Shown here one piece after another: positions 44,430 through 51,519 of a DNA stretch of 64,000 nt (positions are counted from its first letter, which is position 1; every line of letters starts with the position of its first letter). Position numbers and translations under genes: made by a program. Source of the DNA: Methylotenera oryzisoli. GTDB lineage: Bacteria > Pseudomonadota > Gammaproteobacteria > Burkholderiales > Methylophilaceae. The stretch covers positions 1-64,000 of the forward strand of contig CAMDTL010000002.1 in NCBI GenBank assembly GCA_945907735.1, given 5' to 3'. The notes below the pieces were generated by a model. The model was not told the origin of the DNA. It saw nothing but the letters and a program-made list of their open reading frames with translations, and ran no database searches.

Positions 44430-44506
44430 CGGGGCATAGCGCAGCCTGGTAGCGTACATGCCTGGGGGGCATGGGGTCGCAAGTTCGAATCTTGCTGTCC
44501 CGACCA
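44430..44506 (+). tRNA. tRNA-Pro(GGG)
   Basis: A complete 77-nt tRNA with encoded CCA. The anticodon stem CATGC/GCATG encloses CTGGGGG, giving anticodon GGG; the T arm is CAAGTTCGAATCTTG; the acceptor CGGGGCA pairs with TGTCCCG. A TATAAT box stands 34 bases upstream. Its 3' half, terminator and flank are repeated 5.6 kb away, which marks it as an integration site. Confidence 0.95.
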
Positions 44507-44608
44507 ATTTAATCAATGGCTTACAGTTTAATTTCTGTGAGCCGTTTTTATTTTATACGGGCTATGGGTACACTCATGGGTACACCGTAAAATTGCTAGC
44601 CAACAAAA
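44462..44608 (+). repeat. 147-bp direct repeat, copy 1 (tRNA-Pro 3' half plus flank; att-like)
   Basis: From the anticodon arm of tRNA-Pro through its terminator to CCAACAAAA this segment recurs at 50094-50240 without gaps and with 9 differences (about 94% identity). It includes a terminator (stem GGCTTACAG/CTGTGAGCC at 44518-44543 plus T tract) and two short tandem sites GGGTACAC spaced 11 bp apart (44576-44585 region). Tandem sites of this kind are typical of tyrosine-integrase arm sites next to tRNA genes. The layout is that of a relic attachment site. Confidence 0.85.
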
Positions 44609-44641
44609 AAGCCTAATTATCTTTGTCTTACTCAACCAAAA

Positions 44642-44691
44642 TTTATGAAAAATAACCGAAATTAGTTGATAACTAGTTTCGGCTTCATAAA
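44642..44691 (-). repeat. Two-tier inverted repeat, possible leftward terminator
   Basis: Inner stem CCGAAATTAGTT/AACTAGTTTCGG (12 bp with one G-T pair, loop GAT; 44656-44682) is enclosed by outer arms TTTATGAA/TTCATAAA (44642-44649, 44684-44691). On the minus strand it is followed by TTATTTTT, so it could terminate leftward transcription, although no leftward gene is seen to its right before ppk. The next 140 bp toward ppk contain a short coding-like stretch (LLRWLRLQHVRDRAIWLDGG) without a start codon. Confidence 0.6.
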
Positions 44692-44835
44692 TTGCTGGCA
44701 AAAGTACGCAATTTGTTGCGCTGGTTACGGCTCCAGCATGTGCGTGACCGCGCCATTTGGCTTGATGGTGGCTGGCTTGGCAATACAGCAATTACTGCGC
44801 AAATAGTGTGCAAATAAATTATATTTCTCATAAAA

Positions 44836-44864
44836 CCGTCATAATAAAGTCACAAACATGTCAT
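44836..44864 (+). promoter_or_regulatory. Pho box upstream of ppk
   Basis: Three half-sites CCGTCAT (44836-44842), AAGTCAC (44847-44853) and ATGTCAT (44858-44864) are spaced at exactly 11 bases, the same geometry as the box before phoB. A -10-like TAAGAT (44864-44869) adjoins the last half-site and ends 7 bases before the ppk ATG, so PhoB activation of a nearly leaderless ppk mRNA is predicted. Confidence 0.82.
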
Positions 44865-44876
44865 AAGATATTGTCT

Positions 44877-46910
44877 ATGACAACCCTCAAACTAGAACTT
44901 TTAGACCGTGATTTAAGCATTCTCAATTTTAATTCGCGCGTACTTTCGCTCGCCCAGCGCCAAGATTATCCACTGCTAGAACGTTTGAAGTTTTTGTGTA
45001 TTGTGGCTTCCAATTTAGATGAGTTTTTTGAAGTACGCATGAATGCGCAGCTAGAAGCGATGCGCGCTGGCATCAAAAAAGGCGCAGTGACGGAGTGGAG
45101 TTTTAATGAAGTTTCGGCACAAGCGTATGCCTTGGTTGCTCGTCAATACGATATTTTTGATGATGAGTTGATGCCCGCTTTAAAAGCGGCTGGCGTTGAT
45201 ATTGTTGGCAGAAGTCATCGTAGTAACAATCAAAAAAACTGGGTCAAAAAATATTTTCAGGCGAATGTAAAACCGCTACTGTTGCCTATTGCCTTGGATA
45301 TGGCACATCCATTTCCGCAAGTGGCTAGCAAGGCTTTGCATTTTATTGTAGAGCTGGCAGCGGTTGAAAAAAGCGTTCAACCTACAATCATTATTATTCG
45401 CGTGCCGCGTGCGCTACCAAGAGTTCTCCAGCTCCCAAAAAATGGGCATCCCAGCCAAGAGTTTGTCACACTCACCAGTATTATTGGCGCGCATTTGCCA
45501 GATTTGTTTGGCTCTAGAAAAATACTGAGCTTTTCGCAATTTAGGGTCACTCGCCACTCTGATTTGGATTTAGACGAAGATAGTATGGATGATTTGCCCA
45601 GCGCATTGCGCCAAGAGCTAGCGCAGAGGCCGTTTGCAGAGGCAGTGCGGCTTGAGGTTTCTCAGGGTTGTGCAGAGCGATTATCTGCATTTTTATTGGC
45701 AGAATTTAAGTTGCCGCCCGCTGCAATGTATCAAGTGCAGGGGCCAGTTAATTTGGGGCGTTTAATTCAATTGCTTAGTTTGACGAAGGGTGAGAACTTA
45801 AAATTTACGCCTTATAGCCCTGCTTGGCCCAAGCAACTAAATAAACAAGAATCGATTTTTGCTCGCTTAAAGCAAGGCGATGTAATGATACATCGCCCCT
45901 ATGAAAGTTTTGATGCGGTGATTCAGTTTTTGCATGAAGCGGTTTACGACCCTAAAGTGTTGGCGATTCACCAAACCATTTATCGCACTGGCAGCGATAT
46001 ACGCATACTGAATTTGTTGCAAGAGGCGGTAAAACGCGGCAAAGAGGTGGTAGTGGTGGTGGAAATTAAAGCGCGCTTTGATGAGGAAACCAATATCAAC
46101 TGGGCAGAAAAATTAGAAGCGATAGGCGCGCAGGTTATGTATGGCATGATAGGGCTAAAAACGCATGCCAAAATGCTATTGGTATTGCGGCAAGAAGGAA
46201 ACCGCATTAAGCGTTACGCACATGTTTCCACAGGCAATTACAATGCCAATACGGCAAAGCTATATACGGATATTTGCATGCTCACCAGCGATTTAACTTT
46301 GACACGTGAGATTGGGTATATTTTTAGGCATCTTACCAGCCAAATTGCATTGCCTACTATCCGTAAATTATTGGTGGCGCCATTTAATTTACAGCGCGCA
46401 ATGTTGCGGCAAATTTCGTTAGTAAAAGCTGCAAGTTTGGCGGGTAAAAAAGCTAAGATTATTGCAAAAATGAACTCGCTAACAGACGAAGTGCTGGTGA
46501 AAGCCTTAATTGGTGCGGCTCAGCAAGGTGTTGAAATTGATTTAATTATACGCGGCGCTTGTATTTTGCCAGTGGATGCACCTGCTGTAGAAGGTAGAAT
46601 TCGCGTTAGGTCAATCGTGGGACGCTTTTTGGAGCATTCTCGCATATTTTATTTTGAAGCGGGTGAAGCTAAGCGCATGTGGCTTTCCAGCGCAGATTGG
46701 ATGAGCCGTAATATGATACGACGTATTGAAATTGCCTGGCCGATTTTAGATGCACAAATGCAAACACGCATTTTTCAAGAATGTATCGAGCCTTATTTGA
46801 AAGACACCGAAGATGCTTGGGCGCTAACAGTGGCTGATTATATGCAGGTGAGCAGTAACAAAACCAATACACACAGCGCGCAAAAGCTATTGATAGCTCG
46901 TTACTCTTAA
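44877..46910 (+). CDS. ppk: Polyphosphate kinase 1
   Basis: PPK1 makes inorganic polyphosphate from ATP at the membrane. The 677-residue protein shows the N domain (DRDLSILNFNSRVL), head domain and the two C domains with the autophosphorylated histidine region (LKTHAKMLLVL) and the second histidine in YAHVSTGNYN. The ATG at 44877 fits the family N-terminus; upstream in-frame sequence covers the Pho box. There is no Shine-Dalgarno. It is followed by a sixA-like gene after 6 bp. Confidence 0.95.
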   Translation: MTTLKLELLDRDLSILNFNSRVLSLAQRQDYPLLERLKFLCIVASNLDEFFEVRMNAQLEAMRAGIKKGAVTEWSFNEVSAQAYALVARQYDIFDDELMPALKAAGVDIVGRSHRSNNQKNWVKKYFQANVKPLLLPIALDMAHPFPQVASKALHFIVELAAVEKSVQPTIIIIRVPRALPRVLQLPKNGHPSQEFVTLTSIIGAHLPDLFGSRKILSFSQFRVTRHSDLDLDEDSMDDLPSALRQELAQRPFAEAVRLEVSQGCAERLSAFLLAEFKLPPAAMYQVQGPVNLGRLIQLLSLTKGENLKFTPYSPAWPKQLNKQESIFARLKQGDVMIHRPYESFDAVIQFLHEAVYDPKVLAIHQTIYRTGSDIRILNLLQEAVKRGKEVVVVVEIKARFDEETNINWAEKLEAIGAQVMYGMIGLKTHAKMLLVLRQEGNRIKRYAHVSTGNYNANTAKLYTDICMLTSDLTLTREIGYIFRHLTSQIALPTIRKLLVAPFNLQRAMLRQISLVKAASLAGKKAKIIAKMNSLTDEVLVKALIGAAQQGVEIDLIIRGACILPVDAPAVEGRIRVRSIVGRFLEHSRIFYFEAGEAKRMWLSSADWMSRNMIRRIEIAWPILDAQMQTRIFQECIEPYLKDTEDAWALTVADYMQVSSNKTNTHSAQKLLIARYS

Positions 46911-46916
46911 ATATGC

Positions 46917-47435
46917 ATGCGCCTTACATTTAAACAAATCATTTTATGGCGACATGCTGATGCAGCACCTGCTGATATTGAGCAGGGCGAAACTGATATG
47001 CGGCGTAATTTAACTACCAAAGGGCTTAGCCAAGCTAAAAAAATGGCAGCTTGGCTCCATCTGCAATTATCAGAACCTTCAATATTGGTGAGCAGTCCAG
47101 CGTTGCGCACCATACAAACAGCCGAGACGCTAAAGCAAAAAATTACTGAAGCACATGCGCTAAGACCAGACGCAAATTTGCAAGAAGTGCTAAAGTTTTT
47201 GTCTGACTTGGAAACTAAAAATAAAGACCAAATTAAACTTGGAAATAGTTTAATTATAGTGGGTCACCAGCCTTGGTTGGGGCAGTTGGTGATGCATCTA
47301 ACAGGGGTTTCTGGCGCGGAAGTTAGCATTAAAAAAGGCGCAATATGGTGGTTGCGCCCTTCGTTAAACACGTCACACAAATATAAAGTTTTTACTGTGC
47401 AAACGCCCAGCTTGCTAAAAGAGCCTACTTACTAA
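46917..47435 (+). CDS. sixA: SixA-type phosphohistidine phosphatase
   Basis: A 172-residue histidine-phosphatase-superfamily protein. The catalytic motif is reduced to LWRHADA (Arg12-His13), as in SixA, with the second histidine in VGHQPWLGQ. SixA removes phosphate from phosphohistidine of phosphorelay or PTS-Ntr proteins. It follows ppk by 6 bp, so it should be cotranscribed under PhoB control. A link to the phosphohistidine intermediate of Ppk is conceivable but untested. Confidence 0.85.
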   Translation: MRLTFKQIILWRHADAAPADIEQGETDMRRNLTTKGLSQAKKMAAWLHLQLSEPSILVSSPALRTIQTAETLKQKITEAHALRPDANLQEVLKFLSDLETKNKDQIKLGNSLIIVGHQPWLGQLVMHLTGVSGAEVSIKKGAIWWLRPSLNTSHKYKVFTVQTPSLLKEPTY

Positions 47436-47443
47436 AAAATAAC

Positions 47444-47872
47444 TTAAGCTTTTTTGTTTGGCCGGCCAGTTTTAATCACAGGGATTTTTGCCAGCGTTAT
47501 TTTAAGTGTGTCGTCACTCATCGCGACCAGCAGTTTAATGCCAGCGCGTAGCAATTCACTTTTCTTTGCAGGCTGTCCCATAGAGGTTAAACGGGCTTTC
47601 ATCAAAGCAATCTGCGCGTACTCATCTTTAGACATGGTAAAGCTGTCGCGCACCATTTTAACTTTTTCTGGTTTGGTTTTTTTAACTACTTTTTTAGCAG
47701 GGATTTTCGCCTTAGGTTTGATAGCCAGTTTTGCTGCTGACTTAGTCGCCACAGACTTAGCTAGCGCTGGTTTGGCCGCAGATTCAATCTGCATCGTTGC
47801 AACAGGCTTAACGGTTGGCTTAGCCACACCAGATTCAGGTGTTGCAGTCTTTTTGGCGGGGTTTTTTGACAT
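47444..47872 (-). CDS. Histone H1-like protein with ribbon-helix-helix-like C-terminus
   Basis: A 142-residue very basic protein. Residues 1-72 are low-complexity Lys/Ala/Pro (AAKPALAK, KIPAKKVVKKTKPEK), like bacterial H1 homologues and AlgP. Residues 73-142 (VRDSFTMSKDEYAQIALMK...KKSELLRAGIKLLVAMSDD) have a strand followed by two helices, as in ribbon-helix-helix DNA-binding domains, then a basic end GRPNKKA. AGGAG precedes the ATG, and a 27-bp palindrome lies directly upstream. It sits between sixA (convergent) and ppx (same strand). A DNA- or polyphosphate-binding role is inferred. Confidence 0.75.
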   Translation of the reverse strand: MSKNPAKKTATPESGVAKPTVKPVATMQIESAAKPALAKSVATKSAAKLAIKPKAKIPAKKVVKKTKPEKVKMVRDSFTMSKDEYAQIALMKARLTSMGQPAKKSELLRAGIKLLVAMSDDTLKITLAKIPVIKTGRPNKKA

Positions 47873-47886
47873 GACATTCTCCTAAT

Positions 47887-47913
47887 AAACGATATAAACA
47901 GTTTATATCGTTT
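47887..47913 (-). promoter_or_regulatory. Perfect 27-bp palindrome upstream of the H1-like gene
   Basis: AACGATATAAAC (47888-47899), a central A and GTTTATATCGTT (47901-47912), extended by one more A-T pair, form perfect 13-bp arms. It lies 14 bp upstream of the ATG, next to the AGGAG site. It could be an operator for the ribbon-helix-helix domain of the gene's own product, or an RNA hairpin hiding the ribosome site. Confidence 0.7.
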
Positions 47914-47971
47914 TTAAAAACTGTCAACAGCCATATTTCTGTAATAAATATAGCTAAATTAGTGCATTAAA

Positions 47972-49498
47972 CTAATCTTTAGTAGAAACAATTAATCTCC
48001 AATTGGTTTTTTGCCAGGCCAGAATTTCCTCTTCTAGTAAGTAAGAGGTTTGCGGGAAAGCCTGCCGCCAAGCGCTCGGCAGGCTAAGCATAAAAGTATT
48101 TTCAGTACGGTTAAAGGTGGTGTTTTTTAGCACAGGCGTGTTGCGCGAGTGACAAAAAATCACCGCTAATCTCAGTGAAATGAGTTGAAAAATAAAACTT
48201 TCATCGCTAAAGTCGGTATCTAGCTTTCTTAGCTTTCCACAGTGGCCTAGCACCAACAAACTTAGGCGATGCAGCTCGCTTTGTGCAAATCCCATTAGCT
48301 CTGTGTTGTCTAAAATGTAGGCGCCGTGCTTTTGCGATTCGCTATGCGAAATTATGGCGCCAATTTCATGGCTAGAGGCCGCCCAACCCAATATTTTCCT
48401 GAGTTTATCTAATTCGTACTGATTATTTTGATGTAGATTAAGTGTGGGTGTAAGCGCATCAAAAAACGCTAGCGCTACCTTAGTCACATTTTTAGCATGG
48501 GCTTTATTCACCGCAAAACGGTTTGTGAGGTGCATAATGGAGGCATCTCTTAAGTCCTCTACCATGTGCTCCTCTGTAATCATATCGTACAGCAAGCCAT
48601 GGCGTAGCGCGCCTTTGGCAACAATCAATGTATCAAGCTTAAGTAAATCAAATATGCCAATTAAAATACTCAAACCACCGGCGATGACTGACTTTCTATC
48701 TTCTTTTAAACCAGCCAAATCTAGCTTATCAACTGTTTTAGCTTTGATGAGCTGGGCGCGTAACCAGTCTAATCCTTGGCGCGTAATTTTGTTTTCTTCA
48801 AATCCGGCATTGGATAAAATATCGGCAATCGCGCCTACTGTTCCTGATGCGCCATAAGCTACATCCCAATATGGATGCTGATAAATATTGGCCACTGCAT
48901 CTAAAAATGATTCCGCAGCAATTTCGGCGCGCTGAAAATTTTTCTCGCTTAAGTTGCCATTAGCAAAATATTTGAGTGACCAAGTCACCGAGCCAACACG
49001 CAAGGAGTCTGTGGTTTCTGCGTTTAAATGCTGACCCAAAATAAATTCAGTGGAGCGTCCGCCTATGTCAATTACCAAGCGCTTTTCGTCTGACTGTGGC
49101 AGTAAGCGGCTCACACCTTGGTAAATTAGGCGCGCTTCTTCTACGCCAGAAATGACTTCTATTTCGTACCCCAAGGTTTTTTTGGCCAGTTTTATAAAGA
49201 CATCGCGGTTTCTGGCTTCGCGCAGTGTTTGTGTTGCTACCGCGCGTACATGGTGCTTGGGTAAACCTTTTATCGTTTCACCAAATCGCGCTAAACACTT
49301 AAGTCCGCGGTCTATGGCTTCGGGTCTTAAGTTGCGTTCTTCGTCTAAATCGCTGCCTTGGCGCACTGTTTCTTTAAGGTAATCTACGCGCTGGATTTGG
49401 CCGTTTTGATAGCGGCCAATTTCTAATCTGAAACTATTTGAACCTAAATCAACCGCAGCAAGTAAGGCTTCTGAGGAAGGAGAGTCGTTATTTAGCAT
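47972..49498 (-). CDS. ppx: Exopolyphosphatase
   Basis: A 508-residue Ppx/GppA phosphatase that degrades polyphosphate. The ASKHA nucleotide-fold motifs are VDLGSNSFRLEIG, AVATQTLREARN, the catalytic glutamate in SGVEEARLIYQGV and VIDIGGRSTEFILG. The C-terminal HD-like helical domain (SSHEIGAIISHSESQKHGAY) follows from about 310. A -35/-10 pair TTGTCA and TATGCT with 17-bp spacing lies upstream on the minus strand, but no Pho box. It is on the opposite strand to ppk, so synthesis and breakdown are separately controlled. Confidence 0.95.
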   Translation of the reverse strand: MLNNDSPSSEALLAAVDLGSNSFRLEIGRYQNGQIQRVDYLKETVRQGSDLDEERNLRPEAIDRGLKCLARFGETIKGLPKHHVRAVATQTLREARNRDVFIKLAKKTLGYEIEVISGVEEARLIYQGVSRLLPQSDEKRLVIDIGGRSTEFILGQHLNAETTDSLRVGSVTWSLKYFANGNLSEKNFQRAEIAAESFLDAVANIYQHPYWDVAYGASGTVGAIADILSNAGFEENKITRQGLDWLRAQLIKAKTVDKLDLAGLKEDRKSVIAGGLSILIGIFDLLKLDTLIVAKGALRHGLLYDMITEEHMVEDLRDASIMHLTNRFAVNKAHAKNVTKVALAFFDALTPTLNLHQNNQYELDKLRKILGWAASSHEIGAIISHSESQKHGAYILDNTELMGFAQSELHRLSLLVLGHCGKLRKLDTDFSDESFIFQLISLRLAVIFCHSRNTPVLKNTTFNRTENTFMLSLPSAWRQAFPQTSYLLEEEILAWQKTNWRLIVSTKD

Positions 49499-49840
49499 AA
49501 ATTGCTTTATAGCATATATTGATATTAACTGGATGACAAAACTAACTTTGCGCTACTATAATTTTCTCGTGCTCAGGAAAATGGCGCGCAATCACGCTTA
49601 AATCAAAGCTATGCAAAATACTGGTGTTGGATTCACGCTCCAACAGAAACTCAAAGGATTATTTAACTAATTGTTTGGATAGTAAACTTATTTAAAGCAG
49701 GTTTCCAATTGTGGCATCGTCCATTTCTTTCTGACAATTTCCCAGATAGAGCACTCAAATCCGAGGTTACAAAGCAAGGGACAATAGGCGGCTGGTTAAG
49801 ATTACATGAGAAATCTATTAGAGAGATTTAATCCATTTGG
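49499..49840 (+). pseudogene. Decayed accessory DNA with an unrecognised coding remnant
   Basis: No intact gene is present. From about 49664 to 49831 one plus-strand frame reads as protein-like sequence without a start codon (IVWIVNLFKAGFQLWHRPFL, then a stretch ending GGWLRLHEKSIREI before TAA). Just before it a 19-codon ATG frame ends in TAA. The composition suggests the C-terminal part of a lost gene; I do not recognise the family. It lies next to repeat copy 2, in keeping with a degraded mobile element. Confidence 0.4.
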
Positions 49841-50029
49841 CTAACAAATATTCCCCATCAAATAGCCCCCATTTGGTTTCGGGTTCTGTTTAACTATAGT
49901 CAATACCCGTTCAACAAACTCATCCTCTGTTTCGCTCTCAAGGCGCAGGTACTCATCTCCGCAATACGTTAGCGTAGTTAGCTCAATATATTTGCTAACA
50001 TTATGTATTATATAGAATATATTATACAT
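49841..50029 (-). CDS. Small uncharacterised ORF beside att-like repeat
   Basis: A 62-residue frame from the ATG at 50029 (MYNIFYIIHNVSKYIELTTL...) contains an acidic helix ESETEDEFVERVLTIVKQNP and ends GGYLMGNIC. The frame is open 25 codons further up to a start inside the tRNA-Pro remnant, which is unlikely to be used. The sequence upstream is A/T-rich with TATATAGAATATATTATAC. It may be a leftover gene of the island; no function can be given. Confidence 0.4.
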   Translation of the reverse strand: MYNIFYIIHNVSKYIELTTLTYCGDEYLRLESETEDEFVERVLTIVKQNPKPNGGYLMGNIC

Positions 50030-50093
50030 TCTATGTGTCAATATGTCCGATAATGTTTTTTTATGTCTAGCAGGATAAGGTGAAAATAACTGG

Positions 50094-50240
50094 CTGGGGG
50101 GCATGGGGTAGCAAGTTCGAATCTTGCTGTCCCGACCAATTCAATCAATGGCTTACAGTTTAACTTCTGTGAGCCGTTTTTATTTTATATGGGCTATGGG
50201 TAAACTTATGGGTAAACTATAAAATTGCTAGCCAACAAAA
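50094..50240 (+). repeat. 147-bp direct repeat, copy 2 (partial tRNA-Pro; att-like)
   Basis: This copy contains only the last 45 bases of tRNA-Pro (50094-50138), the terminator hairpin (50150-50175) and the flank up to CCAACAAAA. The 5' half of the tRNA is missing, so it is not a functional tRNA gene. Compared with copy 1, both tandem arm-like sites have changed together from GGGTACAC to GGGTAAAC. It lies between the decayed region and the outer-membrane protein gene. Confidence 0.85.
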
Positions 50241-50328
50241 TAGTAGTTTTTTCACTCTCAAACCTATTATCAATCATACAGTACAAATCTTAGGCAATTT
50301 TAGCCATTACAGCCACTATTTAGCCAAA

Positions 50329-50375
50329 TGCACACATTGGGTGCAAAATTAATCAAAATGCACCAAATAGTGGGC
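50329..50375 (+). promoter_or_regulatory. NtrC-like binding sites upstream of the outer-membrane protein gene
   Basis: TGCACACATTGGGTGCA (50329-50345) fits the NtrC consensus TGCACC-N5-GGTGCA with one mismatch. A second, weaker site TGCACCAAATAGTGGGC begins at 50359, 30 bp away, on the same helix face. They lie about 260 bp upstream of the start codon. I found no convincing sigma-54 promoter (GG-N10-GC) between them and the gene, so function is uncertain. The rest of the 50241-50604 gap shows no gene. Confidence 0.4.
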
Positions 50376-50604
50376 CTGTAAATTGTTGTATTTATGCTGA
50401 ATTTTCAGTTTTTTGTGAATCTATTGTTGCAAGGTGTTGATGTTTGGGTTCAATATAACTCCGTAGAACGTGTGTTTATGCTTCTTGGGCGGTTTTGTAA
50501 TGGTTTTAGTCGTCATTGTGACTTTAAACAAGCAAATTGGATGTGATAATAAACGCTGGAATAAAAGAATTTAATTTTACATTACTCATGGTTAAGGGAA
50601 ATTT

Positions 50605-51519
50605 ATGAAAAATATTGGTTGGTTATTAAATCGTCAGGTGTTAAGCACATTATGTGCAATACCACTATTACTAAGCAGCGCTAGCGTATTGGCTGATGAA
50701 GCCGCCGCAGTTGAGGCTGCGCCAGCAGCGGTTGCGGCCGCAGCTCCTGCTGAACCAGCATCACCACATACACTCACTTTTAATATTGGCTTGTACAGTG
50801 AATATATGTTCCGTGGTATTTCTTTAAGCGACGGCCCTGCTTTGCAAGGCGGCATTGACTATGGCCATAGCAGCGGCTTTTATGCAGGTACTTGGTGGTC
50901 TAACATGGATAAAGAGTTTGCAGGCCATGGCGACGGTTTTTCAGGCGGTAATCGGTTAGAAACTGACTGGTATTTTGGCTGGGCTAAAACGTTTGAAAAT
51001 GGCATTGGTGTTAACTTATTGGGTAACTACTATTACTATCCAGATAGAGAAAACTCATTTAGTGCTACTGACCAAGGTCACAAACTAGATACCTTTGAAA
51101 TGTCAGCTGCGCTATCTTACAAATGGTTTACTTATACATTTTATTATATCCCAACAGATTATTATGGGGCGAATGCGACAGATAGCAACTTAAATGTTAC
51201 GGATACCAATGGGGACACTGAAGGCGCTACCTATAATGAGTTGAAATTTAACTATGTATTGCCGATTGGCGATTTAAATTTCTTGGCTAAAGTGGGCTAT
51301 CAACATACACCAAATCTTGAAGGTAGTCAGGGCGACGTTGCAATTGGTTTAAGCAAAAATTTTAGCTTGCCTAGTGTCGGAAAGCCGATAGAAGGCTTTA
51401 GCGCTGGTGCTTACTACACCAATACCTTTGATGTTGCTAATGAAGTATTTTATGATACATTCACTGGCAGAGATACCAATGATGAAAAACTATGGTTCTT
51501 TATTAAACGTGCTTGGTAA
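50605..51519 (+). CDS. Outer-membrane beta-barrel protein, TIGR02001-like
   Basis: A 304-residue exported protein with a cleavable signal peptide (about 1-31, ending ASVLADE), an Ala/Pro/Glu linker (EAAAVEAAPAAVAAAAPAEP) and then alternating amphipathic strands rich in aromatic residues. The first strand LTFNIGLYSEYMFRGISLSDG is the signature of the TIGR02001 family, whose members often occur near nitrogen-regulation genes; the C-terminal FIKRAW ends in an aromatic residue as barrel proteins do. A role as a channel is inferred only. Confidence 0.78.
   Translation: MKNIGWLLNRQVLSTLCAIPLLLSSASVLADEAAAVEAAPAAVAAAAPAEPASPHTLTFNIGLYSEYMFRGISLSDGPALQGGIDYGHSSGFYAGTWWSNMDKEFAGHGDGFSGGNRLETDWYFGWAKTFENGIGVNLLGNYYYYPDRENSFSATDQGHKLDTFEMSAALSYKWFTYTFYYIPTDYYGANATDSNLNVTDTNGDTEGATYNELKFNYVLPIGDLNFLAKVGYQHTPNLEGSQGDVAIGLSKNFSLPSVGKPIEGFSAGAYYTNTFDVANEVFYDTFTGRDTNDEKLWFFIKRAW

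Follow-up and report, generated by a model that had tools for sequence, protein, structure and literature searches.

We examined a 64,000-nt stretch of the Methylotenera oryzisoli genome (GenBank assembly GCA_945907735.1, contig CAMDTL010000002.1, positions 1 to 64,000; hereafter the window), in which ppk (polyphosphate kinase), sixA, an H1-like open reading frame (ORF) and ppx (exopolyphosphatase) are enclosed by two direct repeats derived from tRNA-Pro(GGG). The block is the relic of a tRNA-Pro element. The cargo that can still be recognised in it is a duplicate of a core operon and the only copy found in this genome. We favour, with a probability of roughly two in three, a history in which the ppk operon was copied within its own lineage into the element, the native copy being lost later. 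Islands at tRNA genes tend to be regarded as foreign and dispensable. This relic contains a conserved operon of which no other copy was found, and both the duplicated fragment of a neighbouring gene and the emptied native locus are still legible. The case illustrates how an integration hotspot changes bacterial gene order, and it warns that "island" does not mean "acquired". A narrow literature search found no published description of it.

The window sits on contig C2 of a draft assembly (1.42 Mb, 18 contigs, 87.9% complete, contamination given as 0.1%), designated G000. Comparisons drew on 14 congeneric genomes, 13 of which supplied stretches around tRNA-Pro; on 187 genomes of the family, scanned for the integrase arm motif and for element remnants; on 61 genomes, including G000, for the Ppk and Ppx proteins; and on 99 ppk loci, 80 of them the best-kept of a longer list. 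Statements on gene order refer to the stretch covered around each locus. Trees comprised 12-19 genomes, some with partial rows. ORFs were named by eye, and each named ORF except H1 was confirmed by Pfam.

Judged from gene order, the ancestral address of the ppk module is the tcdA-htpG locus. Native neighbours stand beside the module in 12 of the 14 congeners: on both sides in 11 (tcdA on one, htpG or a gene of 87 amino acids (aa) on the other) and on one side in G003, whose contig ends in ppk; G002 and G004 have none. Conversely, ppk occurs at tRNA-Pro in 0/13 congener stretches, and tRNA-Pro near ppk at 0/99 loci. Downstream of tRNA-Pro, G011 and G006 have a porin gene (identity to that of the window 73% and 36%) and then the gene that comes next in the window (88% and 86%). 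No ppk separates tRNA-Pro from the porin, so that both genomes carry an uninterrupted version of the site; in the remaining congeners other genes or a contig end follow. By this comparison the enclosed genes are not original to tRNA-Pro, and a native tRNA-Pro neighbourhood for ppk is rejected. The first-pass annotation had raised the possibility that relatives share the ppk-ppx order beside tRNA-Pro, and none of the 13 stretches does. The module itself is widespread. Matches to ppk were obtained in 59 of the 61 genomes and matches to ppx also in 59, and within the genus each occurs once per genome, genes split between contigs aside; two ppk each were found in G064 and G066, order-level relatives only. 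All four genes are present at 56 of the best-kept 80 loci, always in the order ppk-sixA-H1-ppx, while the other 24 are without at least one of them within the stretch covered. The H1-like gene likewise sits between sixA and ppx in relatives, and in content and order the window's block agrees with the betaproteobacterial cluster.

The old locus is still recognisable in G000, on contig C12, where tcdA is intact. The tcdA fragment that adjoins ppk in the window is identical to the C12 tcdA region at 134/142 (44716-44856) and 35/35 positions, with a longest exact run of 55 bases. Its 89-nt coding part matches its own C12 tcdA at 85/89, versus 54/69 in G002, 62/81 in G011, 62/80 in G009, 42/57 in G010 and 39/48 in G007; the fragment as aligned to relatives (48-169 nt) reaches 69-81%. 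Past tcdA, C12 continues with ppk-upstream DNA to 20 bp short of the ppk start, followed by about 60 unassigned bases and by the flank of tRNA-Met, which in G009 is found on the far side of glgP, roughly 12 kb away from tcdA. The stretch from ppk to glgP is gone between tcdA and tRNA-Met (C12:1-1300, locus L078). Searches of G000 with the HtpG and GlgP proteins returned no match. In a DNA search, htpG was found in G006 and missed in G000, G002 and G004. These comparisons show a duplication of tcdA and the absence of ppk to glgP from the native locus, with one match each for ppk and ppx in the whole of G000. Since tcdA is intact at the old locus, its duplicate stands beside ppk and ppk-glgP has disappeared, the operon was most probably duplicated and the original lost. 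The "rearrangement" offered by the first-pass annotation was thus right in kind; what the evidence indicates specifically is duplication, including the 3' end of tcdA, with later loss of the original.

The two repeat copies that enclose the block are 153 nt long, align without gaps and differ at 11 positions (92.8% identity); they start within tRNA-Pro(GGG), 5632 nt apart start to start, and share a longest exact run of 31 nt. A size of 147 bp had been given at first annotation, where the existence of the repeat and its lack of gaps were correctly described. A 211-nt repeat query returned from G000 only the pair and three short, weaker matches (two on C4, one on C11), and a dispersed repeat family, named earlier as a possible alternative, is rejected. 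One end bears an intact tRNA and the opposite end its displaced 3' fragment as a direct repeat, so that the copies look like tyrosine-integrase attachment sites and an attachment-site footprint at tRNA-Pro is apparent. No integrase occurs among ORFs of at least 90 aa at 44612-50090, and the element is therefore a relic rather than a working island, in line with the integrase-less footprint initially proposed. An integrase at tRNA-Pro, sought in relatives, is present in G012. There, 14.4 kb separate a full tRNA-Pro from a 3' remnant, whose alignment begins at the tRNA base where that of copy 2 does and which is adjoined by a 473-aa integrase (Pfam Arm-DNA-bind_3 and Phage_integrase); copy 2 and this remnant both read GGGGTAGC, versus GGGGTCGC in intact tRNAs. 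In G007 the two genes downstream of the G012 island follow tRNA-Pro and the island is absent. The G012 cargo (L037:6355-20000) includes, by eye, autotransporter-like and GGDEF/EAL-like proteins.

Copy 1 also carries a 28-base tandem arm-type repeat. Allowing up to 3 mismatches, the scan of the 187 family genomes located this motif 5 times, in 4 genomes; the only exact occurrences are two in G000 (C2 and C4), and those in G019, G040 and G214 have 2-3 mismatches. It stands 57 bp (G214) and 58 bp (G019) past tRNA-Arg, with no integrase within the 3 kb examined and, in G214, a terminase gene nearby. On C4 and in G040 it lies 22-33 bp ahead of an integrase start, with a tRNA-Arg 3' remnant (identified by eye) beyond it; the C4 integrase is represented by its N-terminal part only, its Arm-DNA-bind_3 domain scoring just below the Pfam cut-off. 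C4:1-660 (L035) is in itself a second element end in G000, with a tRNA-Arg(ACG) 3' remnant at the contig start and the ATGGGTACAC arm repeat. Among viral contigs the exact motif has a single match, in L196, just upstream of an integrase, and the tRNA-Pro remnant string has none. That integrase (L196:3784-5147) is a 395-aa protein with a Phage_integrase domain, and a tRNA-like fragment was seen nearby by eye. Copy 2 of the window holds a version of the motif with 4 mismatches at the identical 57-bp spacing. Since a single integration would place chromosomal DNA there, the arm sites in copy 2 suggest two related integrations in tandem, which had been among the explanations offered at first. With the integrase and any third tRNA fragment gone, this reading rests on the arm-like sites that each copy carries. 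The divergence between the copies was set aside as a clock, since they probably come from two different elements.

We infer the following sequence of events, including the two integrations, their order, the copying mechanism and the loss of the integrase. Successive insertions of two related tyrosine-integrase elements would have targeted the tRNA-Pro(GGG) 3' end. Copy 1 would mark the tRNA-proximal junction of the later element, and in copy 2 the far end of that element would be joined to the proximal arm of its predecessor. From the chromosome of this lineage, a segment of 5 kb (the end of tcdA, ppk, sixA, the H1-like ORF, ppx and the end of the 87-aa gene) would have been copied into the element, with illegitimate or insertion sequence (IS)-associated insertion, not the integrase, as the most likely route. 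Deletion of the original ppk-to-glgP stretch would have left the island copy as the only one found, and the element would have decayed to its ends, losing its integrase.

Several observations weigh against this history. The ppk+ppx tree places G000 outside (G009,G011,G001,G010) at 100/99, and it rejects G000+G009 (approximately unbiased test, p-AU 0.0009) and G000+G009+G011 (p-AU 0.007). Isolated 48-nt stretches of the tcdA fragment reach 88% in relatives. The HtpG and GlgP protein searches that came back empty had no positive control of their own, and the assembly is a draft (87.9% complete, 18 contigs). Neither an integrase nor a third tRNA fragment is left, and the arm version of copy 2, with its 4 mismatches, was missed by the 3-mismatch scan. 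As for the trees, markers from the tRNA-Pro locus pair G000 with G009 (Shimodaira-Hasegawa-like approximate likelihood ratio test, SH-aLRT, 99), native-locus genes place it beside G009+G011 (86), and in a wider marker tree G000, G009 and G002+G004 form one group (89/86). The comparison of ppk/ppx trees with the species tree, proposed with the first annotation, is accordingly mixed: ppk+ppx conflicts with the markers, whereas ppx alone keeps G000+G009, weakly (49/85). Possible causes of the conflict are an accelerated rate once the module had moved, recombination, or an origin in a different lineage.

Other explanations have to be weighed. An integrase element once near ppk may have excised aberrantly together with ppk-ppx, in the manner of specialised transduction, and then have entered tRNA-Pro, possibly arriving from another cell of the species, which would account for the intact native tcdA. 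The element ends do enclose native DNA on both sides, and G004 is a second genome with the module beside a tRNA 3' remnant, there of tRNA-Met. Nonetheless, we consider this unlikely: the segment edges lie inside tcdA and the 87-aa gene, one of them with a transposase scrap, rather than at attachment sites, and the scan of viral contigs gave 6 relatives of ppk, the best at 44% identity. A polyphosphate island arriving horizontally from another Methylotenera lineage and displacing the native copy would fit the disagreement of the ppk+ppx tree with the marker trees. It is, however, distinctly improbable, given that the tcdA piece adjoining ppk matches the genome's own tcdA at 94-100%, versus 69-81% for the relatives aligned, and that the nearest ppk in the 60 other genomes searched is 77% identical. 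Slighter still is the chance of an assembly or binning artefact, with C2 chimeric or with C12 and C2 coming from different strains. The draft state of the genome gives it some ground, but exact sharing is limited to 31 bases between repeat copies and 55 in the tcdA duplicate, both block junctions and the native-locus junction are internal to contigs, no second ppk or ppx was found, and contamination is given as 0.1%. That ppk-ppx are core genes native beside tRNA-Pro and merely bracketed by two integrations, as one earlier explanation had it from the two att-like flanking copies, is already contradicted by gene order, the module lying at tcdA-htpG in 12/14 congeners and at 0/13 tRNA-Pro stretches, with tRNA-Pro at 0/99 ppk loci and the tRNA-Pro-porin order of G011 and G006 free of ppk, and it deserves practically no credence.

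Displaced modules also occur in two congeners, G002 and G004. In G002 (L185:1130-2202) 2 bp separate the 87-aa gene from tcdA, and no scar marks the departure of the ppk-ppx block; its ppk-ppx lies on another contig, beside an unassigned gene. For the gene after ppx in G002 an msrB label was dropped, the 84-aa piece having no Pfam family. In G004 (L055:1-1047) a tRNA-Met 3' remnant and a further 320 bp or so precede the module; taken together they are 87% identical (365 columns) to tRNA-Met and its flank in G009; no tRNA was found on the other side of the module. The end of contig C154 of G004 is identical to the first 141 bases of L055. G009 itself (L192:2983-17194) has tRNA-Met followed by three more tRNA-Met 3' remnants over 14 kb, resembling a tandem array of integration scars. 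A clade of G000, G002 and G004 is not rejected (p-AU 0.433). A single relocation shared by the three was discarded: the module sits at different sites, and the tcdA duplicate of G000 seems to postdate the divergence from G002 (85/89 to its own tcdA vs 54/69 to that of G002), so that the G000 event at least is taken as separate. It is conceivable, yet doubtful, that in this clade the module is itinerant, repeatedly taken out of its native position and set down at tRNA integration hotspots (in G000 at tRNA-Pro, in G004 at a tRNA-Met remnant, with a scarless closed site in G002). If so, elements at tRNA sites would be relocation vehicles for a core stress-metabolism operon.

Genes can change place by duplication and differential loss, a copy arising at a new location and the old one disappearing. 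The ppk operon resembles this in both respects and differs from the general case in that the duplicated piece of a neighbour gene can still be read and the operon landed in an integration hotspot. Its vehicle recalls the tyrosine-integrase islands targeted to tRNA genes, a kind labelled P4-like. Such islands, the subject of the Islander database (PMC4383910), share with it a regenerated tRNA and a displaced 3' fragment at the ends. Here the integrase is gone, the recognisable cargo is a host core operon and the original copy was not found. In Methylophilaceae, flexible genomic islands and tycheposons have been described in which a repeat of the last 20 bp of tRNA-Lys marks an additive island and a tRNA-Met tycheposon with xerD partly holds core genes; according to the sections consulted, that work covers Methylopumilus and OM43, with 7 Methylotenera strains as outgroup (PMC10872708). 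The family, the tRNA border and the presence of some core genes are common to those islands and to ours, whereas our site is tRNA-Pro and our core genes are a copy that has outlasted its source. By the tycheposon features given in those sections, the block has the tRNA border and lacks the tyrosine recombinase. The words "polyphosphate" and "ppk" have 0 occurrences in the main text of that paper (PMC10872708).

Features of the block and its surroundings, in window coordinates.
Feature	Coordinates	Strand	Basis or remark
tRNA-Pro(GGG), intact	44430-44506	+	ARAGORN
Repeat copy 1: tRNA-Pro 3' part, terminator-like stem and arm-type sites	44459-44611	+	read as left attachment site (attL)-type junction
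Tandem arm-type repeat ATGGGTACAC-NN-ATGGGTACACC, 57 bp past the tRNA	44564-44591	+	pattern scan
Unassigned DNA between copy 1 and native segment	44612-44686	.	no informative match in loci compared
Duplicated tcdA 3' fragment with internal deletion (ThiF by Pfam)	44687-44806	+	matches C12
Native tcdA-ppk intergenic DNA	44807-44876	+	on C12 kept to the base matching 44856
ppk, polyphosphate kinase, 677 aa	44877-46910	+	Pfam PP_kinase domains
sixA-like histidine phosphatase, 172 aa (name from the first-pass annotation)	46917-47435	+	Pfam His_Phos_1
H1-like lysine/alanine-rich ORF, 142 aa	47444-47872	-	no Pfam family
ppx, exopolyphosphatase family, 508 aa	47972-49498	-	Pfam Ppx-GppA
3' part of the 87-aa gene (ppx neighbour at native locus), 5' part gone	49559-49674	-	
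Decayed 3'-end fragment of a Mutator-family (IS256-type) transposase gene	49675-49739	-	abuts native segment
Unassigned DNA, probable element remnant	49740-50082	.	only short weak matches in 187 family genomes
Element-end sequence AAAATAACTGGCT, resembling AAAATTAACTGGCT ahead of the tRNA-Arg remnant on C4	50083-50095	+	by eye
Repeat copy 2: displaced tRNA-Pro 3' part and diverged arm sites (50196-50223)	50091-50243	+	
Gcw_chp-family porin-like gene	50605-51519	+	Pfam; relatives follow tRNA-Pro in G011 and G006

Within the block, ppk, sixA, the H1-like ORF and ppx are all open reading frames. Past copy 2, positions 50240-50620 matched none of the relatives' loci compared. The transposase scrap lies on the right side only, and the block does not have the IS copies on both sides of a composite transposon: the left 75 bp match none of the 14 loci bearing that IS, and at the right edge the IS end, expected about 60 bp further on from a comparison of copies, is absent. 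The scrap is up to 86% identical over 65 nt to three places in G177, and an intact transposase ORF (L168) belongs to Pfam Transposase_mut, the Mutator family.

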